From: Gavia stellata
Lineage: Eukaryota; Chordata; Aves; Gaviiformes; Gaviidae
Length of the DNA stretch: 64,000 nt
Assembly (NCBI RefSeq): GCF_030936135.1
Contig: NC_082598.1
Location: 31,614,687 to 31,678,686 of the forward strand
Reading direction: 5' to 3'
This document shows, in pieces, positions 29,601 to 63,617 of this stretch. Position 1 is the first letter of the stretch, and the number at the start of each line of letters is the position of its first letter. A program made the translations under genes and the position numbers. The notes under the pieces were generated by a model. That model was not told the origin of the DNA. It did not search any database and saw only the letters and a list, made by a program, of their open reading frames with translations.

Positions 29601-32600
29601 CGGCAAACTTGCAGCTGCTTTGGACGGCTCAGCCCCGCGGCTGCCCCCCGCGAGGCAGAGCTGCCGCAGTGCCCACCCGGCCCCACCCCAGCCAAGGGCC
29701 GGCACCAGAACGGGGTTCGCGTGCCGGCTCCTCCGTGCCTTCTTTTCCCTTTCCCGAGGGACCAAGATAGCGCCGCTCCGTCTTTCTTCTCTCCCGCGAC
29801 CCCCCAGTGCCCGCACGGCAGCCCCTGCCCACGAGAAGGGTTAAAGCAGCCCCATCCAGGCGCTGCCCCGCCCGCGGAGCCCGCCGCCCCCCGGCACCGC
29901 TCCCGCCCGAGCTGCTTTATTCGCCTGCCTCGAATACCGAGCCTGCTTATTTGGCAGTTTCTCAAGTTACTCCCCTCAGGCAGCTTGAGCCAGTAAAACT
30001 AGATCCTTTCATCTCGGCGGAGCTTACTGACAACCAGCCGTCTGGTTTCCTAGGAAACAAAATCTTGGCTAGAAATAGTGAATCATTTCCAGGTCACTTT
30101 CAACATGGAGAGTGGAGCAGGGAAGCATTGGACTGAGGAGGAGGTTAAAGCCTTGTTAAGCGTCTGGTCAGAAAAAAATATCAGAAAGCAACTCCACGGC
30201 ACCCTGAGGAATAAAGGAATATTTATCTACATTGCTAAAAGGTTGCAGGAGTTAGGAGTTTGCAGGGATTGGAAACAGTGCCGTGCAAAGTATAAAAACC
30301 TGAAGTATGAATACAGAACGGTTAAATATGCCCACAACTCTGGGGATGTCACTAAAACCATGAAGTTTTTCCATGATCTGGATGCCATATTGCGATATGA
30401 ACCTGTCACACAATTAGCAGCAGAAGAAAACGGCAGGTGTTCTGCGACTGAGACGCAGCTGAACACAAGCCCCACAACAGAGAGCACGCAAGGTAAAAAA
30501 CTGTTTTTGCTTCTATCTTTCTCTCTTTGCTTAAAAACCAAAGGGAACAAAACCGAAGCCTGAGTTTGCTCGAGCCGAAGCGGAGGTTGCGCAGCCCCAA
30601 CAGCGCTGTTAGAACTGACTTGATGCACTCCTCGCGCAGGGGAATAAAATGTTAGCACCCACCAGTGTTGAAGTCTGTAAATACAGCGTAATTCCAGCAA
30701 AATTATGCTAACTGCTTGTATTGCAGCCTCGGTGAGTACTTGCTGGTGACAAGGCTCCTGCACTGGGTTGAAACGTTAAATTAAGAAAAGCTGTCTTCTT
30801 TCCCTTTGACATTGGTTTGCAGTACTTTGGAAGCAGGTTTTGTAGAGCTCCAATTCAGATGTAAGCTTCAAGAAAGCTAAAAGTAAAGGTTGAAGCTGTC
30901 ATAATTTTTTAAAAATCGTTATTTGTCATATAAGTGAAATGTAGGGTTTTATTCGTATTTCTCAGTAACTGAAAATTCAGGTATGATGACTAAAGGTAAA
31001 TTATTTGGTAAGCAATTAAACTTAAATATTTGAGAAACAGAGGGATGTTTAATAACATCTCATTAAAAATTGTAAAGTAGTGAGGAAAGTGAAAATTAAT
31101 CATGTTTATCAGACTATTTTGCGGCAAAGCAAATGAATACAACTGCTTTTATTCTGAAGGGGGTTTTACCAAATTATTTGCATCTCTTGTTTTATTCAGC
31201 CCTCTCTACATATGCATTTAAGCTGTGCTTAACATTTCATTAGGGTCAATCTGCTATTTGACATCACTCAAATCTCCTTGTCACATCCTAAATGTCACTG
31301 AAGCATAAGCCCCAATAATAGTTACAAGTACCAAAATAAGATGCCTAAAAAGAGAAATTCAAAGCTTAGCCGTTTGCTCCCACAGTGTGTGCCAATATAG
31401 GTTAATTAAGATTGTGAATCTTTTTTAAGAAAACAAAAACCTCAACATTAGTATTGGGAGTATCAGGCAGAGAAGGAAGCTGGACACCTAGCTTGCCCTT
31501 GTACCCCTCCATGTCTCCCTCTACAATGCTGTTTTACAGGTCTGAAGAAAAGAAATTGCCATTTTTCTTCTCATCGTTTACCCTAACGAAAAGCTTGACC
31601 TTAAATTTGTCACCACTGGCAGAAAGCCTCTAATCTGTCAAAGTCACGTTAAATTAAAATGGCAATTTTATAATATTTTAACATGTGCTCTCTGCACTGT
31701 GTATTGCAATCCACTTTTATTTTTAAACTTGCAGAACTAAGGCTAATACAAGCTGTTACACTTCTGAGGACTACGTGAAACTAAGATAGCGTCTTTCATC
31801 TGAGGATCTGCCCTTAGATTACCCTCTGTGTTTTGATGTAGTTTGCACCAATTTTAATGCTAATTTTCATCTGCCTTAGACCTCTAGCAAGTTGAAATCA
31901 GAAAAGGTTGATTTCAGTTGTGAATCCCAAACTAGAATATAAAAAAAAAAATTACCCCGGGTGAGACACACCTCAGTTTGAAGCATTAGGACAGCCTGCT
32001 TTTAAAGGTGATATAATTAAATATCTCTCTTAAATGCACAAGCATTTCTGTCACTCCCTTAAAGAAAAAGAGCAAGTTTTATGGATTAACAGAAATGAAA
32101 TGCAACTAGCTGTAATAATGCAAGACTAAGGGTAAGAATTTAAATGCAAAGATTCCCACAACCACCATAATTCAGCCACAAAGAAAACACACTAAGATAG
32201 AAATGCGTCCTGCAGCTATGCGGAATGCATACATCCCCAACAAGGGGCAGAGAGAACAGCTGTGAGAACGTGAACTTTCTTCATTTAAGCACACAAGTCA
32301 AGCAAGTAAGGCCATACTAGAGGCCCAGTCCTTTCCTGACTGCAGTCGGAGCTGCAATGTCTGCCCAGCCTAGTCCTTCGAAGGGCGCTTGTAAGGCTGA
32401 AGCGGCATCTGTGGCTCTGCAGCTGATGCTCACAGCTCCCTCCGTGGGGGCGGCTCTGACGGTCTCGCTCCCAGGGAGGGAAAGGCGATTCCCCCCCGCA
32501 CAGGTGAAGGCAGATTCCCCCCCGCACAGGTGAAGGCAGATTCCCCCCCGCACAGGTGAAGGCAGCCCCCGCCCCGCGGTGAACCTGGCTGGTGCCCTGC

Positions 32601-35600
32601 GGGAGGAGGGGGCCTGCTTTAATTTGGGCATCACCCTCCCTAAGGCAAACTGACCGAAGTACAGCAGGTCCCCTCCTGGGCTTCTGCCTTTCAACCACGG
32701 GGTGTCACAGGAGGGGAGGGGAAAACGGTCCCTCCCCACCTTAAAAAGAGGCTGAGAAGCCTTATTTTGACAGCTGGAGGAACCAAGGATGTCTAGGCTT
32801 GTGACTTGGGTAGCAAGAACAAAATGCTATCCACAAACTCAAACCTGTGCCAAATAATACTGTCCACCATGCACACCTTACTTTATTTTAAGGACCTACG
32901 AGCTATGCTAATTTGTTTTGTTTAAAAAGCATGACAAGGGACAGGGCGTGCTCCCAAAGAAATGACTGTATTTTTACCATTCTGCTTGGCCTCAGTCTAA
33001 ATATTCATATCCATCCTTAATGTAAAGCTATAAACCCTGTCTTTGTGTTTGATTTGCTTGATTATCTCAACTACTGGGAGATTGCTGGGGAGTGGGAGGA
33101 AGGGGAAGGAAGGAAAAAAAAGAGACTACTTTTATGGGACTGAATGGTATTTCTATAGTGTTTCCCTGAGTTTTGTCTTCATATCTTGTAAAATCAAGTT
33201 TTCTTTTGAAAGTGTAATTGAAGAAATTAACACTGAAAACCACAATCAAATCTAAGAGAGAGGTGTCTCCGGACAAACTTGGTAGCAACACACACACCAA
33301 TTCCCAGCTCATTCATGGAAAGACGACCGACACTTTTTGCATAAGCGCATACAGCATCGCAAGGCAGAGATGTTCATGTTGTCCTCCCAGAATACATGTT
33401 TTCAGAGGCAAACAGAGCTGTAGCTTAAATAATTGTTAAAAAATATACAACTCAACATGTTCACTTCTCTTAAAATTTAGTTTGTGTATTATCCCAGTAA
33501 CAAACAACCAAGAAAATCCACGTAGAGTGATGGCGCACTACGAAAAATGGTATCATTCATTACAGTTCAAATAAATGACCTTCCCATTTTGTTAACCAGT
33601 TTTGATTGTTTCAAGTTAAATCAAGTATTAACAAGTCAAGTACAGGATTTACCAAAGTAAAGTTCACTTAGTAATTCATGTTAAGTTACTTACGCTCTTT
33701 TATATTTCTCTCTTTATGTTTAAATGTTAACGCACTGGCCACTTTCCTTGCCTTTCACTTTACCATAGCAAATGCAGAAAAATTATCAAGTCTGAGCAGA
33801 AATGCATCAGCAATGACAATATTATCATACGGACAAAACTCATTCGACAGCTCCTAGAAATGCAAAAAGCTCCTTCAGAAATGCCGATTTGAAAACGCCA
33901 TTCATACATAGTTTTCCATGTCTGGACTTTAACATTAAACATGCCATTGACAAGTATATATATATACCTTTTTTTTTAATAAGTGTGCAATACTCTTATT
34001 GAGTAACTTTTTTTTTTTGCTCATCAGATGCTTTTTTTCCCCATCAAATATTCTAACATCGTTTTTGTTAACTGTTCTTATTTACTTAAAATAATAAATT
34101 GTTTCTTTTTACTATTACAATGTAATTAAACTTGCTCATCCTAGTACGCATGGCACATTCAGCAGCCTTCCAAGAGAGAATTTATTTCCCCCTCCGTAGT
34201 TTGCTTTGCAGCTCTTAAGCAGGTAAAACACCAGCCCTGGCGCTAGCGGCGGAGGCATGAGCGCACCTTTCCCTCTGCCAGCCTGGCGTAGCAGCTCCTG
34301 CCAGAGAAGCAAGGCGGACAGTTGGGAGCAGTCAGAGATCAGGCTACTGCATCTATGAGTCATTCTGAGCCTTGCTGAAAGTTAGGAGGATTTAGGATAA
34401 TGTTTTCAAATGAATCCAGATGCAGTTTCCAGTTTCACCTACGTCAGGGATACCAGGTTGCATCCTAACCGCACCTCGTTACTGTTCCTTGTGACGAACT
34501 ACCGCAGTCCCTTTGAACAGGTAGCTTTGATCTGTGTGACCTGCCTGGCTGGAGCTGACGGTAGCTCACTCCCTGTACAGTGAATCAACATTTCCAACCT
34601 CCTGTTAACGTGGTACCTTGAATACAGCATATTACCATAGAACAACTTAAAAGCCTGTCCTCTGTGAAAATTAAGCTGATTCAGAACCTGACTTACATAT
34701 GTTGCTTTCTAAACTTACATAGCTATTGCTATTAATGCTGCTTTTTAAACAAATGTAGGAACACTGTACTGTGAAAAGCTAGACTGAATCCTGCCAGCTA
34801 CAAATACATCTGTTCTCTAGTCACACTACTTTCCTGCTTTCCCTATGCCATTAACGAATTCCCTAGATTTCCAGAACTCTTTGCAGAACATTCTTGTTTT
34901 CTTCATACACTTCTCTAAATATTCTTCTTGGAATTTTTTGTTACATAAATGGATTTGTGGTTATCTGAATCCATATGCAAAGTCCACTTTTATTTGTATG
35001 TCTCTTACTTTCCATTATCTACTTTCAAACAGTACTTTTAATGTGCTGTCCACCCCAAATACTGAGTCAGAAAAGCGTACAAGTCACTAGAATCAATTCG
35101 GTTTCTACAGGAATTTTAAATTTAATTTCAAACAGACTTCATATGCAAGATACAAAATAATTTAATTTACCTCCTATAACTCGTGTCCCCTTACGGGGAC
35201 AGGCCAAATTAATTTTAGATTTTATTTAAATACAAATTAAGTGTGGAGATTACAAAGTTAATAATCTTCTTATTGTGTATGGACATTTTCACTTAAACTA
35301 ATTTAAGCTAATTTAGTCCATACCTATTTTTCATCTAAAAACTCTTTCCTTCTCAGGTGAAATATCAGTTTCTTTAGAAGATGATGAGGATGCTCCAGGA
35401 GATCCACTACTTTTTATGTCCCATGTCAGACCAGTTCAACTAGGTATAGTATGATGGCGCAGAGAGATCAAAAACTAAAAAGCAGCATGGCTGTCAGAGA
35501 ACTTTCTGATAGCTTGAATACGCCGTCATTCTGTTTCTGATCAACATAGCTTTAAAATAGCCACGGTTTTGCACCATCTCCTTCGCAGTTTCAGCACTCA

Positions 35601-38600
35601 GCAGTCTCATGCATCACTAGATACTGACCACTGTATACGATAGAACATCTGCATGACCACCATTCACATTCAAAACACATCCCATGCTATAGCTTAATCA
35701 TATTAACCACATTAACCACATTAATTTTGTTAAGTGCTAGTGGAAAGTATGCCAAATGGTAGTGTGTGATACCCATGTCAACTTGTGGATTTTCTCTAAC
35801 TCATGTCATTTCTGCCTAAAGCAGCATGAGTGAATGGCCTGAGCCAGGAGAGATATGCAGAGGTCAGACCTGTCCCACTGAGCAATCCAGATTTGCAGTG
35901 GTCTTCAAAGCAACTGTATCCTCTTCTCCAGGCAGTGGTGGTGACCTCCAAGGGGTGGTCAGCAATGCTTTAGTCCAACCAACCATACAACAACTCATCT
36001 GGAAACCATCCTACTATAGTAGTTCTGCTCAGGAAAGTCATTACAGAGCAAAGGCACAAATCTGGCAAGCCAGAAAGAGGAGTAAGATCCTAGGTGTGAG
36101 CCCTTTCACAGGGCTGCTAAAAGGAATGGAGAAACCTGAACACATTTTAGGCAGAATTAGGCAACCGATGAGCTGATTCCTTGCCTGGATGAACAGCAGC
36201 ACTGTCCTGAATTTCCTACGTGCTCTTTCCATTTTTTAGATACCCTCTATGCCCTAGCATACATCCCAGTCCAGTTGTAACAGCTTTCACTCCAGAATCT
36301 CCAAGGTGCCGTATTCAGGGAGAAAACAAGGCCCCAGCTAAACCTACAGCTCTTATGTTACACACTACACCCCTCTTACCCAGCGTAATAAGAAATTAAG
36401 GAAGAGACAGGAATCTCACATGGAATTATATGCACATAATATATAAACAAAACTTTTCTTCCAGTAAGTATCTGAATCAAATTTTACAGGAATATGTCTG
36501 TGTTGGTGCTCTTACAACACGCTGCCAAGCAGATTCATTTGGCCTGCTAAAAAATCTTCAATTCTGAGAAAGCTGCTTTCTACAAAGCCAGCAAAGTAAC
36601 TTCAGTTGCATGGGCTCTCAAGTATGTACTGATACTAAAATGTCTTCCCTAGTGCCTCTCTTAGTCTTTAGATTTCAGGCACTATTTCAGGCACTACTGA
36701 AAGAAAAATTTTGAGCCCTTTGTATCTATATTGCTTAATATTTTTGGTTTCATTTCAGCAGATTTCTCATTTTGAGGAAGCTCAGAAAAAAATCAAATAC
36801 GACATAAACACATTTCAGATCAAAAAATAATGTATATCCTGTCTTAACAATTTTTTTAGAACAAAGTAGAGCTAAAATACATTTGAGACATAAGGAAAAT
36901 TTTCACAGTAACCATAACAACTTTGTTTCAAAGTGGTGCTTGTGGGTAAGATATTTTGAATCACAATGTTTTTTAAAGGGAATAAGGAACAAACAAAACC
37001 ACCGTTTTCCACTCTGCATACAGCAGAATGAATGAGCAATATACCGAGTCACTAGAACTCATTTGAACTAATACCCACAACCAAAAGTGAACTCAGCTGC
37101 AAATGAAAACTTACTAGTGAGAAATACTGGTCTATACAAGAACTAAAGAAACCTTATCCCTCCCAGATAGCCCCCCACTCTATGGCTTTGACTGGGAAGC
37201 GCAGGGAACACCTTCTGCATTCTTTTTCCTCTTTTCTTCCCCTGGGCCTTTTCTCTCTGGTGTCTCTGGTACTCTCTGGTAGTGAAGAATGAACCACTCT
37301 GGAAATAGAGACAGTTGAAATACTCCCGATAACACTGAGCAGAGACTACATCAAGCCTATCTGATGTTGGCAGTTGTCAACCGTGGCAGTCCCTATGGTT
37401 GCATTCACCTGTAAACAAGCATTTTCTTTCACTCCCTCGGGAAGAAATGAAGAAAGCCTAACTGATATGTCACCTGAAAATTACCCTCCTCAACAACATA
37501 CCAGTGAGCTAGCTGCTGCAGAGGTCCGATTAACACAGGGCTAACAGGAAAGAAATTGGTATCTGTTAGTACAGCTTTTTCACAAGTAGAATGAATTACA
37601 GAGACTAGCAAAGAATGCCTCTATCTAGGACAAGTTTGTCCCCAGACAGGTTATTGTATACAAGTATGCTCCACTGAAGCTGTATGTGCAAGCAAAGGTC
37701 AGATATTTTTGCCATCACACAAAGCTCAGTGACTATAAAGTATCCAACCCCCATAACCTGGCTTGCCCTTTTAGAATAAGACACTTGCAAAGGCATTTAT
37801 CACATCAGTATGACTGCAAACAACTGTGTCAGTTACTGTGCACTTTCATGTTTGCTCTCTTTGATGAAACACCACAATTGTGGGTGTTTTTTTAAATAGT
37901 TATTTTTGCAAAGATTTAGAAAATGCATGAGAAACCACTTTCCAAACTAATTTGATAATCAAAATGAGGTCTTAAAGCAAATTCATAATTAGAAACAAAG
38001 AAACATTAAAAAACTGCAAGAGATCATATTTCTGTGGTTTAAGTAATTGCATGGCATCCTTTACCTTCTAATATTAAAAAATAAAAGTTGAAGACTGGAG
38101 AAAATAAAAAAATATATTACTTCCGCAGAGTAAGATAACGCAAACTTTAATTTTTACTAAAAAACCCCAATATTTTTGATTGACCTGCACTGAGAAAAGG
38201 AGAGGTTCTGTACTAGGAGAACTGCGTTTGTTATCACACAAATATTCTTGTGTGACTTAAGGCAAAATTCTCCATTCCTCAGCTCCCCACAAAAGGGAGC
38301 TTTGTTAAGAGTTAAGGATCAGATTTTTCAGATCCCTACCCAGTTTAAAGCTCTCCATGTGTGTAAAACCAAAAGTATGACATGAATGCAGAACGCTAAG
38401 TCTTGATGCTAGTGTCAGTGACTCAGAGCCCAATTTATTACTATGCTGATACAGCACTTTGTATCTTCCAAACAGCACTTTTCTCCTCTTTAATGTCTTG
38501 AAAGACAAAACAGCTCACCGGTTATTCTCAAAGGTGTTACCAGTAAAAGTTCAATATATTAGGGAACAGAAGAAAGAAATGTTCCTTGCAGATTAGTTAA

Positions 38601-41600
38601 ATGTACATCCACTATCTTGATAACGGTTTTCAAGAGAAGGCAAAACCAATGTCAGAATTGACAAAAATGCTGGCAAATTAATAAGCAATAGCTTGATTTT
38701 AATGTCACCTCTGCTCCATCTTTCTCTGGAGAGGCAAGTCCTGAGGAAACCGCATACTTCATTCTCATTCTCTCTGTCCTTTCCCCACTCCCACCACCCA
38801 ATGCAGGTAACCCATATCTGTGTCTTTCCCTTACCCCACACGATGCAGGTAATCCAACGTCAGCAATAGAGGCTTCCAAAACACCGGCTTTTATTCCAAC
38901 AGTAGCAAATGAAGGAGGAAAACACTGGACTGTTAATGAAGTCAGAGCTTTGATACGCATATGGTCAGACAAAAATATCCAGCAACAACTGGAGGGGACA
39001 GTGAGAAATAAAAGAATATTTGAACAGGTTGCTGCTCGACTTCAAAAGTTCGGAATTGACAGGGACTGGAAGCAGTGCAGGACAAAATATAAAAATCTGA
39101 AACATGAATACAAGAGTGTAAAAAGTGCCCAAGACTCAGGGAATACAAGTAAAAGTATGAAATTTTTTAATGAACTGGATGCTATTCTGGGGCACAGCAC
39201 CATGGAACAAGCAAGTAAATCAGATAATGATGAAAGTGAGAGACCTCCAGAATGGACAGAAGCAAAATCAGAAAAGGACTCCATAGGTAAGTACTTCATA
39301 CCCATATATAATTTAAAATTTTTAGTTTTCCAGCACTAGAGAGACCTTAAAAGAACAAAAAAAAAATGCAAACAGCTAGATTTAGATTAACCAATTTGCT
39401 GGGGGGGAAAACAATGAATGGAAATTTACTATTTTGTCCAGTTGTTCACTTTACATTGTAAGGTAATCTTTACAACTGATTCTTTTTTTAATAGAATTGA
39501 GAAATAAAAAAGAGTAAAAAGAGATGAAGACGTAGGATAAGATAACTTGATACAGAGAGATCATTCCAGTTAAAATCATAGCAGAAGAGACTGTTTTCAG
39601 CTTAGCTAAAAAAATGGATGAGAGAGATAGTCAGACTGGTACTGAAAAAATGTAGACATCGAGCAAAAGAAGTCTGTAGTTACAGACATTAGTTAAAAAA
39701 TTAACATTTAAACTGTCTTTCTCTTATGGTCCCCAGTAGCCCTGTTTTACTGGCCTTTGGAGCAAGAGTCCGAAACTAGTGAGACAACTATTGTGAAAAT
39801 AGCAAAAGGAATAGCAGCAAGAATGCCAGCAGACCTTGCCTTTATTTTTGTGTAGTTATTGATAAATAACTTGGTAACGGATGGATTCATGCAGAATTAG
39901 AGTAGGCTGATGAACCTACACTACCCAGGAGTTAAAACATTTTTTATTGGTATGTACAACCAAAAACAGGCCTGTTGCTTAAGAACAGAATTAAACATAA
40001 AACTCTTTATTATACAGTAAGAAGCTTACACAGGGGATGATATAAGACTAGAAGCTAGTAAAGTAATGGAAGAAGACAAGAAAAATATAACACAGTCTCT
40101 GGCTGAAAACTACGAGAGCATTTTGGGGAAAGATTCACTCTTCAGTTGCTGTTTCTAGGCTCTTTGGTAATGTGTCTACTACTGCCTGCTGGCATAAAGA
40201 GCATCCTAGGTTGGACGGATCTTTTGATTTGACACAGCACAGCTGTTCTTATGTAGTACACAAATGCAGTGCCCTAATTAACATAGCATTATTTACGCAG
40301 AAATGCCTGGAGACACAGGTGAAGAGGACTCTGTTAGTAATATGTCAGAAGACCTACGGGTTGCAGATATAAAGAAAGTTTCTGACTCAGGTAAACTGAA
40401 AAGTCTTCTCTTTTATATAAATCCCTAAATTTAGTAAGTTAAGATGGATTTCTAAAATAAGCCCACATTGTAATGACAGAAAATGCAGAGGCCTAAAAAA
40501 CTTTTAAGCAGGAGATAATGTCATAGTGATAACCATACTTTCAATAAATACTGGCACATATGCACATTTACAGTGCTCTGCGAAATTTGATAAAAACAGT
40601 CTACTAAGTAATTTTTCCAGACTCATGAGCCAAGATGTAAAGAAGATGAAACTACTGGTCTAAGCAAGTTGAATGCAATGTATTACTGTATTTACTTTTA
40701 CTTAAACTATGTCTTCCCAAGGATTAGAATTGTTCAGTCTCCTGTGCATAAACTAATACGGCATTCTCTTTTTCACAATATAATGTGATCAGTGTTACAA
40801 TATAATTGTGTAAATGCTCATGTCAGGGGATCAAAACTTCATTTAAGAGTACGGCTACTACCCCTGAATATGAAGGTCATACACTCTTTACAAAGAAACA
40901 TGGTTTACACCTGAAAGCATAACTTTCAGGGGACGTGGGAATTTAACATTCAGCTAGAGACACATGAAAGTCTCGAAGGCTAATGGGCTTGACTGTCCAC
41001 AACAGAGGACCTCATGATCTCTTCCAGTAGCATGAGGCAGAATATGGTCTAAATTAGGCATTAAGGAGAAGTCTTTCAGAATTTAAAATGGTCAAATGTG
41101 AACTTGAAAGATTTTAATGTCAAATTAAAAATCTTCTGACAGATAATGTTACTGTAAACACTACTCCAGAGAAACTGGCAGCTCTGCCTATAGCGAAAGA
41201 AACAGCTATGACAAGTAAGTAAAGCCATGGTTGATCATGAGAGGTAATTTGAAGTACACTGGACAGTAGTATTCTTGTTTTACCATTCAAGGGCAATTAC
41301 ATTTATTAATTTAAATTTGCTAACAAAGAAATATATAACTGGCCTTTTACCAGATCACCGTAGGCACCTGAGGCATTCATTAGGGAAAAACAGATTGTCG
41401 TGAAAAGTGCATTGCTTATAGGGACCTCATTTTGAGAGAGACAAAATATATAAGAAATCATAAATAATACTTTGTGGGATCCAATTAAAACTACTTGTAA
41501 AATGCATCAAATTCCATTTCTCCCCTCAACAAGTAAAATTACTACATACACATGAACAGTAGTAAGACAGTGTAATAATACATAGGCTCAGCAGTGCCAC

Positions 41601-44600
41601 TAAACTGTCATCTGACATAGTTTTCAACTGCCTGAAGCTACATAATATCGTAACTTTTTGGATTGCAATCTTCCAAACAAGTTACTTAAGACGAAGTTAA
41701 CTGAATACTTCCAGTAAAGTTCTGAGTACTCATTTTTGACATTCCTTTAGGATAAGTGTTAGGTGCTAGATATCTATAGCTTACCTTGGTTACCATTACC
41801 TTGTCAGATATTTTTTAACTGCATATTTTGTTTGTTTCTGGGTAATTGTAATTGCAATCTGATTTTGTGGGGAAAGATTAAAATGGCAAGTGTTTCAGAA
41901 GTGTCTCTGGCTCAATCTATCCACTCTAAAGACTACTGTTCAAACTTCTGTGGGGAAAAAAAGGCAAAACCACAGCACTCCATCATGAAGAGATGCAGTT
42001 TCAGTTTCCAAAATTCTTTCCCTCATTCCCAAATGAACAATACAGACTCATATCATTTTATCACAGGTGGTAAAGAACACCTAGACTTTAATGTTATTAA
42101 TGGTAACATAATTAGCTATTATATAAAGCAGAGAAAAGATGCATGCTTTTTATATTACAATATCATGGAGCCCCTTTATTCTCTAATTGTGGTACATGTC
42201 TTTCCTAGACAGTTCAAATAAATTTAAAGTGCAACACTGGTAAGTAAAGAGATTGTATGTACCTCTGCGTTCATAAATTTACTTGCTGATAAATAGTGAA
42301 AAAGGCAGTCAGGCAGGGATACCATATTACATTGGTTCTTTGATATCAGTAGATGTCTGACAATTGATAGCCTTTAGGATGTGACTTCTTAAGGACTACT
42401 CCATATTCGACAGAACTTTTGTAGAAAACTGGTTCTCAACAAGCATGTAATTATAATTTATATATACATATTCATGCCTTTTTGTAAAAAAAAAAAAAAA
42501 AAAAAAGACGTAAATAAGAATTGAGAAATTCTGTTAACCTTGTATCAGGATATCTTCCTCATTAGTACATGGAGTTAATGTACTCTGCAGTCAGAGTTAT
42601 ACATACACTTGTCTAGATACATACTAGCTAGCCTGGGCAGACATCTGCTTTCTGGCAACTGCAGCTGTGTAAATGCGCAGACGTGCACAAGCTCCCTCAG
42701 AAGTGCATATGCTTCTCACGATCTTACGTGTGGATCTGAGTTATTAACCACAGTTACATTGTTGCCACTGCCAATCTTTATAAATAGTCCAATCAGATTT
42801 GCCGTACTCCAGTAAGGAAAAAATGAAGATGGTATTCGTCAAAAGACAAGTGCACCAGTTTCAGGAAAATACCTAGTTATTTGATGTTTCATGGTATTGT
42901 TTTTCTCCTCTGCCCACATGCATTTGCTCACATGCCCACCTGGGAAGGAAAAGACAAGGTAAATAAATCCTTCCACGTCCTGCAGTCTGTTACCAGTTCA
43001 CTGAAGTGTCTCCGGCGGCGCTGCCCTGGAGTACCTTTCTCAGCAGAGTGGCCAACAGAGGGTGCGAGAGCATCACAGCAGTCACAAACCCCATTTCATC
43101 CCAGCAATCACAAACCCCATTTCATCCCAGCAATCACAAACCCCATTTCATCCCAGCAATCACAAAACCCATTTAGTTTTTTGCAGAAGCGGCCTAGGAA
43201 AGGCTAGGGTCACTGTAAATTCTTCTCTTTTCTGGTAAAAGATACCCATATTAAATCAATCTGGAAATAAAACCTTATTTAGTCATTTTGACTGCTGTTT
43301 TCTATTTCATGGGATCACTTTTAAGGACAGTTAATTACAGAAATCTATTTAGAAGAGCAAATGGCTTCAGTTTGCACAGGCAGTAGTCAGTCAGTTTTAA
43401 CTCCATGTACATGTATGCTCCACATGTGTCAGAGTTTGCAGTATGACCACAAACTGTGTATAGTTGTTGGATTAAATCCAAAGTGGCATGGGAAACAACA
43501 GTGGAGATGAAAACAAGATTCCAAGGGATGTCAGTAGCCTGATGTTCTTAAAAAATATCTACAGCAAGTATTTTGTTTCAAACAAATTACTTTTCTTGTC
43601 ATTATTTTTTTCGCTTTTTTGGTGCCCTGTGTACTTTACTATATGTCCCTCTCATGACAAATATGGAATAAGTCATGACATTGCCGAGATATATTCCTAA
43701 GCAAGGGCTTTTTAAAAGTTGGTTGTTTAAAGTCTAGATCTTAAGTTGGTACACATTCAAGCACTTATGTTGGCTTCTTTTGAAAGTTTACTGCTGTGTG
43801 CTTGGAATTTTAAAATGTACAGACATAAAGTCAAAAGATAATGTTTTAATACATATGCCCCAGGCTGGTGTGAAGCAGCGTTTCAGAGAAGTGCAAAAGC
43901 AAAAGTTCTTGATTATTCACTGGCTTAGCCCAAGGAATACTCAGGCTGCAGACACAAACTCCTGACTGTGCATCCAGAGCTGTCTGTAGGCAGTCTCAGA
44001 GATCTGCATGACAGAGATGGCAGCAACTTTGCAAGCTGTTGGAGAGTAAACATAGGCCACATACTGAAAAATTTTCCCTAGCTTTGACATTCCCCACTCC
44101 CATTTTATACTATACAAGACACACATGAGAGTAAGGATTAGGAGACAAATTACTTATCTTGCCTCGTGAGCCAGAAAACAGGATAAATAGTGATAGTGAC
44201 AGAGTGCCAAAAGAGAACAGAGCTTCTATCAGTCTGAGCGGGTAAAAGGAAGGAGTGCGACAGCATTGCTCTGGTGGCCTTGTGAGCAATGCTTCAAACA
44301 TGAAGTAGAGATTAAGCATATTTGCTGGCAACTGTCTATAGCTTCACTAAACAATGCGGACGGAGCCACTGTGTTTTATCCATGCCAGAAACTGCCGATG
44401 GTTTGTTCTGTTTGGCTCAGTCTTGCTCTCCTCGTGCCCTCCCTCCAAAAACTCTGAACGGTGGCTTAGAAAAAAAAGCCGGGCTCCCTACCCACAGTCT
44501 TGCCTCGCCAAGGAGAAAACAAAAAAGGCGCATGATGTTGGTCACATCATAAAGAACGTCCAATGCAAACAAGGCCGTATTGATTTGGGGGGTAATTTTT

Positions 44601-47600
44601 AATAAAATGGCTCTAGATTATGCTTTATTGCTCAATGTTTAGCAGCAATATTCTTGAATGGACTGAGAACAGGCTGGGAGCCAGAAACTGCTGTCATCGA
44701 TCCGCAGTGTGGCCTTCACCACTTAATCTCTGTACAGCAGTGTCCTCACCTGGAAACGAGGATCGGAAAGACCACTTGCATCATCTGCCTGTCCACCCCT
44801 CCGTCCCAGGGCGGAGGGGTGGAGTTCCCCCTTAAACAGCAGAGGGCCAATGGCAGAGGAGCGGAGATCTCCTCCCCGTGGAGGGGAGCCCAGGGACACC
44901 TCTGTCACCAGGCTGTCTGATGCAAACCCCTCCAAGCCACAGCAGGGGGGATGCTCTGACGACAGGCATTTAGTACTTTGCCTTTATCACGCAGACAGGC
45001 AGCCTTGCAGATCAATCATCCAGGCACAGCACCCTGATGCAATGTCGGTGAACGGACCCTTGTCCCTTTTGGGGCTAATTCAGTGTCTCTTGGCATCAGT
45101 CACTCGGGAGACTTGCAGTATGGAGCACCCCTTACAAAAGTCACTGTCTTGCCTGTTCTGCTGCATAGAGGTTCACCAATTACTACATGTCATACAACCA
45201 CGATCAGCGAACCATTCTACAAATTCTGATCCAGGCTTAAATAACTTAAGAGTTTGCACATTTCATCTATAAACTTATCTTATGCAGCTGTTACTTGTAC
45301 ATGCATACACTCTGCTCTTAAGCCCACTGCTACAGAGAAATGGCAGCTTTAGTGTATTAAGAGATGAAATCTTTAACAACAGTTATCATTGATGGCATTC
45401 TGAAGTTAGCGATCATCAAGACATAACTCAAGACCTGCTTAGTTAATAAGAACTCTGTAAATATTTTTTTTACAGAAATCATTGAAGATGAGGGTGACTT
45501 TGCCAACTCCACCCCAGCAGCTCTGGAAGCTACACAAATAAAGAAGGAGACAATTGACATAGGTAGGTCAAGACTGTCTTGATGTTTATAACAGCACATT
45601 CTACTTTACTGGCAACTGCATATTTCTAAGATTTGCATGTTATTCCCGCGCATTATACTCGTTCTACTTCCAGGTTATAATAAAACCTGGTTTTTGTTTG
45701 ATTTCATAGTGCAAAAATGCATAAACACTTATTTCTCCTTCCCCCAATTAATAACAAATCTTATTTTCTCAGACAACATACTCCTCACTATGCTAGACGT
45801 GATAAATCTGCATTTGATTGTGACAAATACTGTTCTTTTTCATACACAGTTGCTAGAGAGGATAAACTGGAGAGCTAAACAGCTGTCTCAGAAACAGGGA
45901 ACATTTTATGCCTTGTCTGTCTTTTCAAACTACTTCATGACAGTGCATTTAATTTCAGACTGTTCACTATCAAACAATTGCCATAAACATTCTGAATTAT
46001 TTTACAAGTAAAACTGAAATCAGAGCCTGAGCAATATGTAGAAGTCATACATTCAACGACAAGTATTCAGGAGAAGATCTGTTTTATTAAAAACGTTAAA
46101 ATTTAACATTAGACTACAGTAGGGATATTAATCTTCTGCAATAAATGAGCATAGAAACCATGGAAAGTCATGAAAAAAAGGCATCAGAGGAAATAACGAT
46201 GACATTGAAATCTATTGACCTGACATCCTGGATCAAAACATACTTTATGGTAGTGTTGTTTACACGCAGAAGTTAATGGAAAGAATAAAAAATTCTATTA
46301 TAATTATTCTGTGAACAACAATTCCTTGCCCTTTTACATTGAAAGTTTCTACCATAAGAGTATTTCTATTGTATGCATCAGTATTTCTGTGATCCAGGCA
46401 AGAGCTTCCTTCTCAGCAATTATGTTACCTGGAGTTTGGGTGTTGAGACACCCTATCCAACACAGCTTTTACAACTGTTTGCATAGGCTGATCTTGATTA
46501 TGAAAGACAACTGTAAGGAGTATGACACTGAGGACAACTTCAGAGCAATGCTATCACAGCAATGACACACAGAAACACAAGTTACATTGAGGGTAAAGTA
46601 AAGCTGTGTCCCTGAAAGTTCAGGGACATAGCGAGGTCACACTAATGCAAAGAGAAGAGTTCATACACAATGACACAGAATAAAATGTCATGCAAATCAA
46701 CTAACTGCCTTATACACACAAATTACCTGTTCCTGTCATGTAATATCCAACTGACAATACTAATCAAGCAAGTCAGCAGTACACAAGTGCCATTGCCAAA
46801 GGCAGAAAGAGATTAGAGAGCCAGCATGGTTGAGAGAATGAGCACATGAATGAAAGCCATGGGGTTTTTTGGTAATAGTTTAAAAAAAAAATTAAAAAAA
46901 ATCACTCAAGAGCCCAGAAGTAGACGTACTGCTCTATTTTGGCCCAAGCTTGTATTTCCAATAGCTGCAAATGTTAAAGGAAGATGCAAGAATTTTCTTA
47001 AGAGTTATGGCGTAGACTATTTATGAAAAAACACTTTTTTTCTAGTGCCCCAAGTAAATCACACACACATGCTTATAAAAGTATAATTTCCAATTCTAAG
47101 TTTTCCATAGGTATAAAATTTATTCCTGCATATGGCTTATGAAAACAAGTATTTGCCAAATCACTTAAGAGATAGCAAGTTATAAAGCAAATATTAATTC
47201 CAAGTACTACTCTGTACATATGTTAGCAAGTACCATTATAGAAAGCTCATCAAATGAACCACTGCTTATTTATCAACGATCTCTTATTTCTAACAAAGTC
47301 TAAACCATGCACTCAGTTTTTCAAAACATATAAGGAATATTTACTTCTACTCTTTACTGAAAACTGTATTGAAGATAATTAGTCTATGACATCCCCTACC
47401 AAAACGATGAGAACTAACCTTTCTCTCCCCCCCAACCCAAAAAGTAATTCCACACAAAAGTGAACTTTCAGCCTCAGAGAAGTCCAAGCATGAGGAAATG
47501 AGCCCACAGTCAGCAAAGCTGGGCTTTGATGTCCATAGATGATTTCAAGAATTCTGAGGACTTCTGAATTTTACTTCTGAAAGGAATAGTTTTTGTGCTG

Positions 47601-50600
47601 TGAAAGAGTGCAAAGCTGTTATAACCTCAGCTCTGCACAGGGAAAAAAACCCTGGCAGGTAGACATGCAGAAAAATAATATAATGATGTTGCTATCCTGT
47701 TAGAGATGGAATTTTGAAGAGAACTCAGATGCTGGTAGAATGAAAAATAGTTCTTCTGTCTTCCCTGTTTTGTCATTTAAGCCGCATAGAATAGTTTCGG
47801 ATAGAACCATCCCTACATATAGAAAGTGGAATTTAAGCTGAGGCTAGAGATTTCCACAAAAGCATTAATGAATTGGGTTCTTTCCAATTTTTCTTCTCCT
47901 TATGTTATCTCCATCACAAAAGCTCTGTATCAGAGACTAGCCTTTCACCCAAAAGTAAACAAACATGGCTTTCTCCTAAAGGAAGGCAACAGCATGCAAC
48001 CTTCCCCACAAAACATAACATCCCGCCCTGCCCTCCCTCCCAGATTCAGGGAAAGGCATACCTCAAACAAAGCTCAGCTTTGAAACCCACCATGGCAGCT
48101 TACTAAAATGGACTCTAAACTACTTTTTTTTTTTGGTGGTAAAAAGGAGTCCTGAATAGAGGAGAACAAGTAGGAATAAGGAGCAAAGGTCTCTTTTCAG
48201 TTCTTTCTGCTGTACCAGGGAAACTCGCAAAGATCTGAGAAAAGCCCCATCAGCAGTATGAAATGCAGCTGATGCAAAATCACACTACACGCAGGTCTGC
48301 TGACAGGTGCCTGTGCCTCTCACGCCTCCTCATCGCATCCGAATCACGTGCACAGCTTCCAAACTCTAGAGAGGGACAGTGGTCTTCTAGGGCCCAAGTC
48401 CCTGCTCATTTCATGACAGCAGTGGGGGAGCATGCACGACCCCACGAAGGGAAAGGCTGCAGTCCAAACCCTGTTAGGTGTGAGTGAATCTGCAGACACG
48501 CCCTCACAAATGGCACCAAAGCCTCACCAAGCCTGCCCTACCCACATTGCCTAGGAAGAAAACTGGAAGCCACACCTGTGCTCATCAATGTGTACAAACA
48601 TGTTATGCAAATCAACTTACATGTGAGATACAAACCATCCACGTATGCCTGCATGTTTAACCAAGTATTTTAAATCTGTGTTGCATCAACAGCTACCTTT
48701 TGAGGAATGTGAGGGCAGAAAGAAAGATAGGGCTTATGAGAAATACCAATAAATAATTTGATTTAGGGAGGCATATGGCAGAAGACTTCTTATAACTAGT
48801 GAGTTAGACTAATGTTTTACGACATTTTTAACTGAAGATAGGTGCTACCTGCAGAGGATGACAGTAATATTAGCAATTTATTTGTCTAAGTCCAAGTCCA
48901 TTTTATTTAAAACTGTGTGTTTCTATAGATGATGATTCTATAAGCACTACCTCAGAAGACAGATCTTGTACACCAGTAGCAAAACGGATGGTGGGGACAG
49001 GTGAGTATTAATTTCCATGCATTTATTCTGAAACAAGAGTGCATTGTAATTTCAGTACCAAAGCTGGAGCAACCAGATCTCTACTGTAAACACAGCTCTA
49101 CTTTTCTACTTCTGACTCCAGTCTAGCTTTATCACTAAACTTAAAAATTAGTTTCATAGCTCTATGCCCTGTCATGAGCAAAACTTGCATTAATACTGCA
49201 GTTCAACTTTGCATTCTATACTTACCTGATGAGCAGCATCTGCCTCTTCTGAATATGTAGGTAAGATTTTTTTCTTCTATTAAATCCCCAGTAGCTTTTT
49301 CATTTGCATGATATTTTGCCTTGCCATTCTAATTTGAAACCATACTGAAAAACCATTTTCTTATCAATGCTGGTATCTTCTTGCTTTAAAGCTTAAGGCC
49401 TGTTGCTTTCCTGCATGTAGCACTCAGATACATCTGTCTTTAATTTGACAAGAACAGCAACAAAATTACACTGACAAAATGTGGAATTTTAGATGCCTTG
49501 GAGAAACAAGAGATTTCACTTGCTACATATTTTGCATACTTAAGAGAAATGTAATCATGTATGGATATTAACATTGTAAAGTTAAAAGATTTTCATAACA
49601 AGAGATTATTATAGACATTAATTAATCCTTCAGCTTGTTACAAAATCATTACCTACAATTATAATTCAATGTATGTATATTCAGCAATACTCAGTTGTTT
49701 CTTTTATATTTTCAGACAATCATACTCCCTTGGAAGAAGCACAAAATCACTTTAAAGTTATTACAGTTAATGATACTGGAGCAGGGAAACACTGGAGTGA
49801 TAATGAAGTCAGAGCTCTGATAAACATATGGTCAGATGAAAAGATACAACAAATGCTTGAAGGAGCCACAAGAAATAAAGAAATATTTGAGGAAATTGCC
49901 AGAAGGTTAATGAAACGTGGTATAGACAGAGACTGGAAACAATGTCGCACAAAGTATAAAAACCTAAAATATGAATACCGTGCACTGCAGAAGGAAAATG
50001 AGCATCTTGGTAATCCCAGGAGAAAAATGAGATTTTACGATGAAGTTGACTGTATCTTAAGAAGACAGCCTCTGGGTCCCTCGAGCTGGGGATGTGAAAG
50101 TTCAAGTCTCCTATCAGGTACTAAAAACTTCAGTGATGAGATAAAGTGCTTAACATGAAACTTAAAAGTCGCCTGTTGACCCATGCTGTAGGGGTGAAAT
50201 ATGTGCCAGAATAGGGAGGGAAAATAACTGAAGAACCTGTATCTGCATGGTCACGTAGGCAATACTCAGCTAACAGAAATGGTCTTTGGAGGAGTTTAGA
50301 AGTGAGAAGTGAAAGCACCTGAAGCGTTCAGTGTTTCTGGAGAATCTTTGTGGTTTGAAGCTCAAGTGAGATACAGTGAAATGGTGCTAGAAAACATGGC
50401 AAGTTTTAGAGGTGATCTAGCAGGCTTGTAAAGTCTTATGGATAGAGGGCTGCAAGCTCATACCATTTAGAACCGCAGAAATCTGTAACAAGCCAAGTGC
50501 AAGGACTCCATAAAAGCAGGGTATCCAGCTCCCTGAGCTGGAAGACAAGGATGGAGAGCAAAATAAACTCCCCATGATCCAGGAGGAAGCAGTTAATGAC

Positions 50601-53600
50601 CTGCTATGCCACCTGAACACTCATAAGTCTATGGGGCCTGATGACATCCACCCAAGGGTGCTGAGGGAGCTGGCGGAGGAGCTTGCCAAGCCACTCTCCA
50701 TCATTTATCAACAGTCCTGGTTAACAGGGGAGGTCCCAGACGACTGGAGGCTTGCCAGCATGACACCCATCTACAAGAAGGGCTGGAAGGAGGATCTGGG
50801 GAACTACAGGCCTGTCAGCCTGACCTCGGTGCTGGGGAAGATTATGGAGAGGTTCATCTTGAGGGTGTTCACAGGGCACATGCAGGTCAACCAAGGGATC
50901 AGGCCCAGCCAGCACGGGTTCATGAAAGGCAGGTCCTGCTTGACCAACCTGATGATCTCCTTCTATGACCAGGTGACTCGTCTAGTGCATGAGGGAAAGG
51001 CTGTCAGTGTTGTCTACCTGGACTTTAGTAAAGCCTTCGACACCGTCTCCCACAGTATTCTCCTGGGGAAGCTGGTGAATCGTGGCTTAGACAGGTACAC
51101 TCTTCGCTGGGTTAAAAACTGGCTGGACGGCCAAGCCCAGAGAGTTGTCATGAATGGAGTGAAATCCAGCTGGCGGCCGGTCACAAGTGGTGTTCCCCAC
51201 GGCTCAGTATTGGGGCCGGTCTTGTTTAATAATACTGTGTTCAGTTTTGGGCCCCTCATTACAGGAAGGACATTGAGGTGCTGGAGCGTGTCCAGAGAAG
51301 GGCGACGAAGCTGGTGAGGGGTCTGGAGCACAAATCTTATGAGGAGCGGCTGAGGGAACTGGGGTTGTTCAGTCTGGAGAAGAGGAGGCTGAGGGGAGAC
51401 CTTATTGCTCTCTACAACTACCTGAAAGGAGGTTGCAGAGAGGTGGGTGTTGGTCTCTTCTCCCAAGTGACAAGTGACAGGACAAGAGGAAATGGCCTCA
51501 AGTTGCGCCAGGGGAGGTTGAGGCTGGGTATTAGGAAAAATTTCTTTAGTGAGAGAGTGGTGAAGCATTGGAACAGGCTGCCCAGGGAGGTGGTGGAGTC
51601 ACCCTCCCTGGAGGTATTCAAGGAACGTGTGGATGTGGCATTGCGGGACATGGTTTAGTGGGCATGGTGGTGTTGGGTTGATGGTTGGACTTGATGGTAT
51701 TTCTTACAGGTCTTTTGCAACCTTAATGATTCGGTGATTCTGTAATTCAGTTCACACCACAGTCAAGAGAGAAAAAAATCCAGGGCAGTGATGTTTATTT
51801 GAACACTTGTAATTATTATATTAACTTTGCTAAAAGCAGAGTTCTAAATAGATTTTGCTTCTATTTTAGTACCAAAAGACCTCTGATCTCAGAACCACAC
51901 AGCTAACCTTGTGTCTGCTGTAAGGGTTCTCATGACTGGCCAACTGCTCCAGCTCTCAGGGGCACCTGCCCCTACACCAGACAGATCAGATGCTCTTGTA
52001 GAAGCAACTTAACCACTGCAGCTTAGAGCTCAGTAAGTTATGGTAAACCAGAACTAATTCTGATTTTTCTCAATATGTTAGATAATAATTTGCAGTGTCA
52101 CAAATATTGAGGACTTGAACCATTTCTGCAGCAGAGACCAGATGGGCAGCTTGAGCAGAAACCACTGGAGTCATCCTTAAGCCAGCTGTCCGCAGTCATG
52201 AATCAGAGCCCTAATGTGGTGTCCAAGAGCACCATATGGTAGTGCCATTAGTTGAGGCTGGAGTGACAGCCAGACAGCCACAGGATGACACCGCTGCTTC
52301 TCACCTGCCTCTTTCTTGTGCTCAATCACATTCTTAAGACAGACATTTTCTTCTAAATCAAGAAGCTAAAGATATTACTGCTCATTTCTGCTCTCCATGA
52401 ATGGAATTTGTCAACACCAAGAATATTTGAGCCAACCTGGCTGTTTCACATTTTAGCGTGCTGGAAAAGGACTGTGCAATCTGTGCTGTGAACGCTGATG
52501 CAGGAGACAGTAAAACAATAACCTTTCAGAAAAGAAGCTTTAGTTATTAAGCTGTTGTAGGCATCTGCCAAATAAATGTGTCTCCACCCTGATTTTGTGT
52601 GCCAGCCCAGCACCTAACTTTTCTAGATGATTCTTATTGCTCCAGGTCACTTGTCCCAAGGCATTTGGTTTTGTAGTATAAAGCTTTTTGGTGTGTGACT
52701 GACTGTGCTTTGAGAATCTCTGCAAAATACTTAGTCACATTGCTTTTCTCTTCTAAGTTTCAGTGGGAGATGTTACAGCAAACACAGGATCCTTGAGTAT
52801 CAAGAGAAAAACATGGAATGATGGTAAGAGCCCCTGACTTTTGAATTGGATGCCAGATTCTAGTTTCCGGTACTCAAACAGTTAAAAAAAAAATCCTAGA
52901 ACTTAACACCAAGCTCCAAACCAACATTCTTCTCTCACCCTCAACAATCTGCAAAAGAAGGGTCCTGATAAAAATATAGGCCTAAGGAAGACTGCAATTT
53001 CTTTATTTCAATCCTCATCCCTGGTATAAATGAGGTAAACATCAGGAAATAATTCTTTGATTTATAAGAATCAAGTGCAAGGAAAAGATAAAAAGATCTC
53101 AAAAAGAACATGATGTCTTAATTACCTGTGTTGCTCAGAGGAAAATAGGGACAATATCACAGTCATGGTTGTGGTTCTTCATATTATACTATGTGTCAGT
53201 AAACAAGAGGAAACATTACATGTTTAGACTTATAATGTCTAACATGTAATGCCTAACATGTTGTACAAGAGAAAACAGGTTAAGACAGCTATTCCAAAGA
53301 AAAGATATGGTATAGAATCACTAAGAGAGAAAAATGAAGGGATAGATAGAAATACGTGGCATGCAATCTGATAATAGGAAAGTTCAGGAGCTTATTTTTC
53401 TTCCTGGCAGAATTGTCAGGCCCTAAATAATCAAAAAGTCCAACAATGAGAGAGGACAACCTTAGTGTTTAGGAGGCTTGCCCCTATTTTTAATACTAAA
53501 ATGATGTCTTGTCTACCGACAGATGAACACAAACAGATCCGACCACCACAACATTTCTGAATTCAACCTGCTCAGTTCACCATCACAAACTGTACTAACA

Positions 53601-56600
53601 GGACTAACTCTATGTGATTAAATATACTTTCACTTATTGCCTATTAGATAAGTAAGTCTTGCAGATGGCAGTAGCTAGGCAAAGCTGAAAGTTTCAAATA
53701 TGAGTGATTTTTACAAGGTCTACTTCATTCCTACTTGCTGTTGTACAATGACCCCTTACACAACACCAGGCAACACCTGCCAAAAGACCGTAACAGAAGA
53801 ACAGCATTAGGAAAATCTAGCATGTGCTAAACTTCGGTGTCAACTTTTCATTGACTTGTGCACTCTAACTACATACTTTGCTTTTGTCCACAGAGATGTC
53901 ACCTGTTCCACTTAAGAAAAGTGCTTCTGAAAACACCATACTCCACTTCCAAAAACTATTAACAGAGAGAGTGCACACAGTAACAGAAGGCAAAAAGTTA
54001 CTGTTAGAAAGGCTTTGTAAGCAGGAAGAAATGCAAGACCTCAACAGAACACAGCTGTACGCTGATCCATCAGCCATGCAACAGGTTGGTTTTATGAATT
54101 TTCTATGAAATTAGCATGCAAAAAGATTCTCTCAGATAGTAAGAAATTAAATAGACTTATTTATGAGTGTAGGTCACCCACATGAATACATGCTTGCTCC
54201 CCTTTAGTATATTCACCTTCAGTCATTTAAACTGAAACGAGGTATGAGTTGCCATCATAATCCTTAACTATGAGCTTTTAGCAGTGACGTCAATTAGTCT
54301 AATAAAAGATATAACCTCTGCCTACATGCCTTGGCTCACCTACATGCCACAACTAACAGGCTTAACTGAAAGAAAGTAACACTTTGACTGATCAAAGAAA
54401 ACATGTACAGTTAAAATTTCATCCCATCATTTCCAATTAGCATCTGTATGACCTCGCTAGCAAGTTAGTCCTCTGCAATTAACCAAACAGTTGAAGCCAT
54501 GAGAGAACTTCTTTTTGGTTAGGCAAGGCTGCTGGGGAAAACATGACACTTATTTCTTTTATCAGCATTTACCCTCCTCCTAGCCTCACCACCTGCCTAT
54601 GCTGGGGTGGGGGACCATCCCCATCTGCCCGCTGAAGGTATGGTGCTGTGCAGCAAAGAATTGGAGAATTCAATGAGGCAGAAAGGAGGTACACAAAGTT
54701 GACGCCCACATAGAAGGGGCAGGCATGGGTTCTGGTACCTGTTCTCTACTGGGCAAGGCATCTGCCTTGTCCAGTAACCAAATGAAGTACAGAAAACACA
54801 GGAACAGTGCAGGGAACAATATAATGGTAAGTGACAAATGCCATGGCATAACTAACTCTGCAAAATCGTATGAGCCACTACTTCATTTTGTGATTGTGTA
54901 AGTACTCTATAGCCTGTACTGCCTGCAAGGCATGCATTTCCAGGGTTTTACTTTTAGTGTATTCAAGCAGAACAACTCATTTCTGGATCTCAGTCATGTT
55001 TGGGCATAGACCTACACAGCCCTGCCAAAGCTAGTTGGCCACACACAAGGGCACAACTCAAGTCAAACAGTCAAGTCCTTACTGCAGTAGCAACAGCCAC
55101 CAGGTTTTTTATACACAGAGGCCTAAATTCCACCCAAGTCTCTCTTCACAAAATCTTCCACAAAAATATTACTGGATATAGTGCTTTGTTTCCTGCTCTA
55201 CAATTAATTATTTTCTTGTTAATTCTTTCATGAGAGACATTACAAAGGTAAATAATTTCCACCAAGGTAGATTTTATCTGCCATTTGACTAGCATTTTTA
55301 AAACAATTCTGAGAAGTCAGAGAGAGATCCCTAGAAAATCACAGTTTTTTGATCAAGTTCATTTATACAATGACACGGACACACAGCTGTTCCAGTGTAT
55401 GCTTATCTACCACTTTTCACATTTTACATTGGTTTCTCTAGTATCATTGTTGGTTTAAAAATCTTTTTCTCTTTGCAATGAGTTGGTTCAAAGATACCTC
55501 CTTGAACTTGCATCATAATACTTGCATACAGAACTGCTGTCTTTGGTAGGAGAACAAGGGATCTATCCCTGCCATCATGGCAGTCAGGTATCCTTCCATA
55601 ACATGCTGAACCAGCTGAAGACCTCGCCATTCCTAGCAGTACTAAAATCACAGGTTACTCCTTCCACATGTGAACCAGAAAAATGTGTGATCCAACCCTA
55701 ATTCACTCTAGTACATTTAAACAGTTTAGTTCAATTTAGATTTAAATTAAGTTTTAAAAACAACTGTACTGAAGACAATATGGATCACTCACATGTTCTG
55801 CTTTACCTGCTCTGTTCCATGAGTGCAAGGCTGAAGTTGCAGAAAACAGCTGAAGCTGATTTGATAACTCATTGCAACAAGAAAATCTCCTTTTCTCTGT
55901 GCTACTCTGAGCAATCTGATGCTTGCTGGATCCCCTATAAACCAGTTCAGCTCACTAACCTGAGACAAGACTAGCCCAGTTGGGAAAAAAAAAAAGCAAA
56001 TGGTTTTCTGTGTGAGTTGAAGCAGCCCAGCAAGTTCTCAGCTGTGCTAGCCCTAACTGTGAGCAGCTCAAAGGTTGTTTTTGTTGCAGTGTGACTGCCC
56101 TCGCACAAGAAAGGCTAACCTGAGGGAGGCAGTTAGCACTGCAAAGACAACAAACTGCACTCAAAATTCTGAGTGATGCATAAGGATCCCAATCTTTCCA
56201 AAACTTTGCTGTCACTTCCAGTACAATGTCCCCCCAAACCCTTTTTCTTCTTCCAGAAAATAAAACTTATTTTATTCATCAAAATAAGCAGATCTTTCAA
56301 GAAATATGTATCGGTTTTTAAATGCTGTTGTTCAGCTGAAAACTGCACAAAAGCACTGAGGCAAAGGACTGTCTAAATTCTTAGTAGGTCAGAGCAGAGA
56401 ATTGCAGAGCACACTTGCAGCCTCTGCTTGGAAACTGTTCATATCAACACTAGAGGGTAGACATGAAGAAGAACTGACAGAAAAAAAAAAAGAACACAAG
56501 TGGCTTTCCTAGTAAAAGGTCTTTCTCAGAAAACTTTCCAGAGAGCGGGATTTACCTGACAAACAAATGTCCAAAAAAGGTGGATGTTCCTTTGTGTGGG

Positions 56601-63234: not shown

Positions 63235-63612
63235 GGCGCGAGCGGCACGTGGCGGCGGGCGGCGCGGCCCCGGCGGGCGGCCCCGGCCCCGCTCCCGGTC
63301 GCGGTCCCGCTCCCGCTCCCGCTGTGGCGGCTCCCGCGCGCTCTTGCCGGCGCCGCGCGCAGCCAACAGCGCCGCGCCGCGCGGGGCCGCCGGTAGCCTG
63401 CCGGCGCGGCCTCCCTCATTTACATACGGGGGGGCGCCCCCGGCCCCCACACCGCCGCCTCGCCCGTCCCCTCCCCGCCCCCTCCCCCGCTTCCAGCCAG
63501 GCCCGCGACCCCGGACCCGCTGCCCCCGCGGGGCGCAACAGGCCGGGGGGGGTGTTTGTCCGTGGGGTGGGGGGCGCGGGGAGTCGGGGGCCGGGCGCGG
63601 CGCGGCGCCGGC

Positions 63613-63617
63613 ATTGG
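63613..63617 (-). promoter_or_regulatory. Inverted CCAAT box
   Basis: ATTGG within GCATTGGCCG on the plus strand, in the divergent promoter. It is a possible NF-Y site. Confidence 0.5.

Follow-up and report, generated by a model that had tools for sequence, protein, structure and literature searches.

A candidate triple-trihelix 5' half of PAICS nested antisense in the first intron of PPAT

The locus of PPAT and PAICS, which encode core enzymes of purine synthesis, was analyzed in a 64,000-nucleotide stretch of the Gavia stellata genome, referred to here as the window. Ten plus-strand exons at 30105-54108, which encode three trihelix (Myb/SANT-like) domains, run antisense to PPAT and share their strand with PAICS, which follows directly downstream. 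Our preferred reading, to which we assign a probability of about 0.7, is that these exons are a coding unit of ancient vertebrate origin, used as an alternative 5' half of PAICS and also giving a second, standalone product. The exons, their domains, the frame, the splice sites, the orthologues and the recurrence of one junction across database proteins from several classes are shown by the analysis.

Ten exons encoding three trihelix domains

The ten exons are intact and splice into one open frame of 638 amino acids (639 codons including the stop). All internal exon boundaries have AG/GT splice sites in phase 1. An earlier note on this DNA had described ten plus-strand exons with one frame and one junction phase, and this was borne out; its length of 636 codons needed correction. 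Splice sites were ranked with a simple weight matrix, made from general knowledge, against all 4543 AG and 3071 GT dinucleotides in the window. Some are weak by this measure: the acceptors at 38849 and 41143 fall at the 76th-78th percentile, the latter at the 76th, and the donor at 35443 falls at the 85th. Orthologues were collected by three protein homology searches. The best 120 matches of each (from 503, 289 and 525 hits) gave 236 distinct proteins, and all counts of listed proteins refer to this set.

Exon 1 (30105-30492) contains the start codon and trihelix domain 1 and ends in a phase 1 donor. Exon 2 (35357-35443, phase 1 on both sides) encodes an acidic linker and is present in crocodile and turtle orthologues. 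Trihelix domain 2 is in exon 3 (38849-39286); a longer form of this exon begins at 38807, and its extra residues are also found in a turtle record (P0175) and a crocodile record (P0231). Further linker sequence is encoded by exon 4 (40301-40390; 76% identity in crocodile), the fast-evolving exon 5 (41143-41214), which is unaligned in several orthologues, and exon 7 (48929-49000). Exon 6 (45476-45562) contains IKKE, which resembles the consensus for the small ubiquitin-like modifier (SUMO), followed by acidic residues. The SUMO-like pattern was matched in 190 of the 236 listed proteins and is too loose to serve as a test. Trihelix domain 3 lies in exon 8 (49716-50117). Exon 9 (52758-52823) encodes a nearly invariant basic KRK motif, and exon 10, in the form spliced to PAICS, spans 53894-54084. 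If splicing does not occur at 54084, a short retained-intron tail with a stop codon (54085-54108) ends the standalone form, whose 3'-most exon covers 53894-54108.

The window is avian DNA. The closest listed proteins are 97-98% identical over nearly their full length; among those with legible names, the one from Aptenodytes forsteri is closest. Chance exons were ruled out by full-length orthologues of up to 98% identity over 100% of the length, and a bird-only gene by listed orthologues that extend to turtles, squamates, mammals, gar and sturgeon. A known structured RNA was not found, as Rfam gave no match at gathering scores.

A profile search with Myb_DNA-bind_4 (PF13837) scored the domains in exons 1, 3 and 8 at 67.5, 77.0 and 71.1 bits against a Pfam cut-off of 27, which confirms the three copies that had been claimed. 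The copies are 50-60% identical to one another, and the KHW, RNK, RDWKQCR and KYKNLK cores are invariant across all three, in agreement with the purifying selection that the earlier note had read from them. Nonsynonymous differences between copies (pN 0.21-0.28) are far fewer than synonymous ones (pS 0.66-0.87). No further domain copy was detected elsewhere in the window (E-values up to 1), and no phage relatives were matched by domain 1. No SCAN or zinc-finger family appeared in Pfam scans of exons 1, 3, 8 and 10 or among the Pfam labels of the listed orthologues, so the claimed lack of these domains held in everything scanned.

Domain 3 modelled alone gave a mean predicted local distance difference test score (pLDDT) of 71, and fits a Myb-like fold of three helices (11-21, 37-49 and 56-80) plus a further one, predicted at 88-97 with low confidence. 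Its best fold match in the PDB was Arabidopsis GT-1 (2jmw), with a Foldseek probability of 0.98 and an E-value of 0.63; there was no fold match at 0.001. The same chain was the best sequence match, with an E-value of 3.7e-6. The trihelix domains may bind GT-like DNA. The model of the full fusion protein was poor (mean pLDDT 42): the trihelix blocks were fairly confident, the PAICS part was not, with a shallow alignment, and exon 10 was drawn as a long helix (582-622) at low confidence. The KRK motif corresponds to K561, R562 and K563 of the bird reference protein P0003 and is kept in at least 90% of a 24-row alignment, while the sturgeon record P0195 is without it. It is a possible nuclear signal.

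The listed orthologues come from birds, Crocodylus, turtles, squamates, marsupials, carnivores, a whale, a rhinoceros, caecilians, gar and sturgeons. A tree built from 41 domains of 13 species places the copies of domain 1 in a single clade (support 100/96) and those of domain 3 in a second one (100/99). Gar and sturgeon are the earliest branches in both; the grouping of domain 2 is less supported (83/67). Because each of the three groups spans gar or sturgeon to tetrapods, the tripling is older than the split of ray-finned fish and tetrapods. Three caecilian-type records (P0219, P0220 and P0221, two of them so named) have four trihelix domains, with domain 2 doubled. Measured against P0003, turtles and crocodile have identities of 93-97% in the trihelix domains (Mauremys 94-97%) and 94% in PAICS. 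These values are 82-93% versus 85-88% in mammals and 79-85% versus 86-87% in caecilians. In gar and sturgeon the domains are 64-79% identical, and a partial sturgeon PAICS is 68% identical over 268 residues. By these comparisons the trihelix domains are about as conserved as PAICS itself. The gene is real, dates back to early bony vertebrates and is under purifying selection.

The predicted junction with PAICS

A splice from exon 10 to PAICS is possible in the window. The donor CAG/GTTGGT at 54084 is at the 93.6th percentile of GT sites. The acceptor CCCTAG/GTGTCT at 63868, in the PAICS leader and 30 nucleotides before the PAICS start codon, is at the 98.6th percentile of AG sites. Some of the nested gene's own splice sites score below this pair. 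Joining 54084 to 63868 is in phase 0 and leads through ten open leader codons to the PAICS start codon at 63898, so that PAICS exon 1 would cover 63868-63916 in the fusion, with its donor after 63916. Since the window stops after this exon, completeness of the enzyme was checked on the orthologous fusion P0002, in which residues 648-1069 match residues 4-425 of human PAICS (2h31; E-value 1.3e-251). The PAICS part is whole and includes both enzyme domains.

The earlier note had taken the exons for a self-contained gene ending at 54108. This was not supported in that form: the exons continue into PAICS in 178 of the 236 listed orthologue records. In 165 of the 178, the trihelix tail runs into the residues that immediately precede the PAICS methionine, which is kept. 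These direct joins comprise 134 sauropsid-type, 23 placental-type and 5 marsupial-type proteins, whose linkers measure 6-17 residues, and 3 caecilian proteins with a linker that could not be matched to the others. Most record names are incomplete, and the clade labels of unnamed fusions were assigned by sequence type (marsupial-type by likeness to Sarcophilus and Macrotis records). The join is seen in listed records of birds, turtles, crocodile, mammals and caecilians. Among the names of listed orthologues, from the sources ncbi, nr and uniref, are Gallus, Anas, Tyto, Crocodylus, Chelonia, Mauremys, Leopardus, Panthera, Halichoerus, Megaptera, Geotrypetes and Rhinatrema. Names of primates or rodents do not occur among the listed matches, which says nothing on human or mouse.

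The other 58 listed proteins are without PAICS, and the databases thus contain proteins with two alternative ends, fusion and standalone. The standalone tail VG[LF][ML]NF occurs in 15 of the 58, and 2 more are cut directly after VG; these are from birds and turtles. In the window, the start of the intron at 54085-54108 reads VGFMNFL-stop, with first codons alike in birds and tortoises, and this stretch is perhaps more conserved than a plain intron.

These standalone records raise the question of whether the exons are simply a nested transcription-factor gene ending at 54.1-54.3 kb, with the fusions being annotation artefacts that chain neighbours on the same strand. The 58 proteins without PAICS, the 17 of them with the whole or cut retained-intron tail and an AATAAA at 54301 fit this explanation, as do the squamate-named and gar records. 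Yet birds, turtles, crocodile and mammals share the same non-obvious join, to the 3' splice site of the PAICS leader and not to PAICS exon 2, and the window has its high-ranking acceptor exactly at this join. The join is also found in both ncbi and uniref records, in records with submitter-style names (such as Paics of Columba guinea) and in exon-skipping variants. We therefore regard the artefact explanation as unlikely.

Several points still weigh against PAICS having a trihelix 5' half. The protein records that predict the fusion are apparently mostly automatic predictions themselves. Many are isoforms of one locus, which makes the counts non-independent. Ascertainment accounts for part of the shared frame, as out-of-frame cases would not be annotated as fusions. 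The 54084 donor is not strong. Ten of the 178 listed fusions have extra segments, some GC-rich, that resemble prediction noise. Three others join differently (P0164 and the sturgeon records P0195 and P0199); one of the two sturgeon records is without the first part of PAICS, and P0199 is flagged UNVERIFIED_CONTAM by its source. All four squamate-named listed records and the gar record are standalone. Finally, the tail before the junction, 40-47% identical in squamates, is only 21-31% identical in mammals and caecilians, and 18-31% when gar is included.

Some individual records also stand out. P0226, P0229, P0230 and P0232-P0235 are fusions of 1157-1423 amino acids with a GC-rich-looking insert between the trihelix tail and PAICS; as a guess, these inserts may come from antisense reading of the PPAT promoter region. 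P0207, from the humpback whale, is named "capping protein-inhibiting regulator of actin dynamics isoform 6" and is a trihelix-PAICS sequence, which is either a misnaming or a still longer read-through. P0159 is a chicken fusion of 837 amino acids that carries the source code "lgn" and two contigs. If this means assembled sequencing runs, which is a guess, the record might document the spliced form at the RNA level.

Proposed products and other explanations

We infer that the mRNA and the fusion protein are made in Gavia stellata and that the protein acts on DNA. In the proposed mechanism, the CpG island at about 29.5-30 kb would act as a second promoter, 34 kb upstream of PAICS. Plus-strand transcription from it would cross PPAT intron 1, PPAT exon 1 and the promoter shared by PPAT and PAICS. 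Splicing from 54084 to 63868 would then yield a long PAICS of about 1065 amino acids, which would consist, in order, of three DNA-binding domains, a flexible acidic linker, a long helix and the whole bifunctional enzyme. When the 54084 donor is not used, translation would stop at 54108 and give a standalone three-domain factor. The IKRK motif of exon 9 would take both products to the nucleus.

PMC9035706, a study of the ordinary enzyme, describes PAICS as a stable homo-octamer whose flexible N-terminus extends from the plate edge. Because of this flexible N-terminus, an N-terminal addition is sterically plausible. Fusion subunits could enter the octamer, so that many DNA-binding domains would be displayed together, and purine synthesis would be tied to transcription, perhaps of PPAT and PAICS themselves. 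A precedent for such a role in cis is a transposon-derived MADF protein that regulates its neighbour (PMC11893794). More speculatively, and with rather low confidence, we propose that long PAICS with three or four trihelix domains in tetrapods forms mixed octamers, a multivalent DNA-binding particle that would sense purine flux and feed back on transcription, first at the PPAT/PAICS promoter crossed by its own transcript.

A second alternative accepts the read-through mRNA as real, with antisense transcription through PPAT and the shared promoter tuning the two genes and the fusion protein being a by-product. The geometry fits: PPAT exon 1 and the promoter between the start codons at 63234 and 63898 lie in the path of any plus-strand transcript that starts at 30 kb and reaches PAICS. 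However, the compared orthologues conserve the trihelix coding sequence about as well as PAICS, which transcription alone would not need, and we find this explanation improbable. The least probable is a PIF/Harbinger-type transposon gene that was domesticated recently or is decaying, or else a retro-copy: Harbinger-derived host genes can also carry Myb/SANT-like domains, but the ten exons, the intact frame, the bony-vertebrate age and the fixed position before PAICS in fusion records leave it very little room. A recent pseudogene or recent transposon copy is contradicted by the age and the intact frame, while a very old transposon origin of the trihelix unit is possible. Host genes of the Harbinger-derived type are the subject of PMC9710019 and PMC11893794.

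If a trihelix 5' half of PAICS is real, the conserved second promoter, the nested antisense unit and the DNA-binding form of PAICS would alter the interpretation of the locus. PAICS knock-outs, antibodies and expression counts may then mix two proteins, and there would be a direct route from purine metabolism to transcription. An old trihelix gene with several domains may also help to explain the origin of the Myb domains in ZSCAN20/29-type genes.

Relation to known systems and genomic setting

No description of the locus or of a trihelix-PAICS fusion was found in the literature by broad keyword scans of top-ranked results, with most subscription journals outside their scope. The earlier note's statement that no named gene lies here stands in this literature sense, while many genomes do annotate the locus, as isoforms of PAICS ("multifunctional protein ADE2"), "trihelix transcription factor GT-2/PTL", "ZSCAN20/29-like" or uncharacterized LOC genes. 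The trihelix domain, PAICS, read-through splicing and nested antisense genes are each known; their stable combination is new.

Over its C-terminal 422 residues, the fusion P0002 matches human PAICS (SAICAR synthetase / AIR carboxylase) end to end. Compared with the ordinary enzyme, the fusion adds about 640 residues with three DNA-binding domains and a candidate promoter 34 kb upstream. The likeness to the plant trihelix factors GT-1, GT-2 and PTL lies in the three domains above the Pfam cut-off and in the GT-1 match; here, in contrast, the protein is from vertebrates, usually has three domains (four in caecilians) and is joined to a metabolic enzyme. Several orthologues are named in databases after ZSCAN20, ZSCAN29 and ZKSCAN2, presumably the nearest named human proteins. 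The protein is set apart from these by its domain labels. Like other read-through or conjoined transcripts, the fusion joins two adjacent coding units of one strand by splicing. It differs in being predicted across birds, turtles, crocodile, mammals and caecilians, in its in-frame join before a complete enzyme and in having its upstream unit inside a third, antisense gene.

PPAT, on the minus strand, was identified by three joined reading frames that match amidophosphoribosyltransferase in the PDB (9q0n; E-value 1.7e-67). Its first intron spans 27678-63106 (35.4 kb) and the coding part of its exon 1 spans 63107-63234. All coding exons at 30105-54108 lie within this intron on the opposite strand, confirming the nested antisense position given by the earlier note, although the fusion form itself extends beyond the intron. 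PPAT and PAICS are described as divergently transcribed and raised together in lung cancer (PMC4695129), and their promoter (GPAT/AIRC) is cited among bidirectional promoters (PMC2670823).

The trihelix exons also have a CpG island of their own (29400-30104, plus strand), as had been proposed, which is probably their promoter and 5' leader. At 29.4-30.0 kb the GC content reaches 68% and the CpG observed/expected ratio is 0.83-0.98, compared to 0.26 at 31-54 kb. The AATAAA (54301-54306, plus strand) is a possible poly-A signal of the standalone form and matches the earlier note's mention of such a signal; the end at 54108 is only one of two 3' ends.

The intron between exons 8 and 9 holds fragments of a long interspersed nuclear element (LINE) reverse transcriptase at 50514-51658 on the plus strand (RVT_1 in 50514-51317; E-value 5e-24), which we take to be CR1-like. 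Other introns of the nested gene hold two short arrays of 26-bp tandem repeats at 32482-32565 and 43071-43174 (3.3 and 4 copies). Outside the nested gene, a minus-strand reading frame at 10138-10434, beside a second GC-rich stretch at about 10.8-11.7 kb, may represent the start of AASDH. A tandem repeat at 6391-6522 is strongly purine-rich (A/G) on the plus strand.

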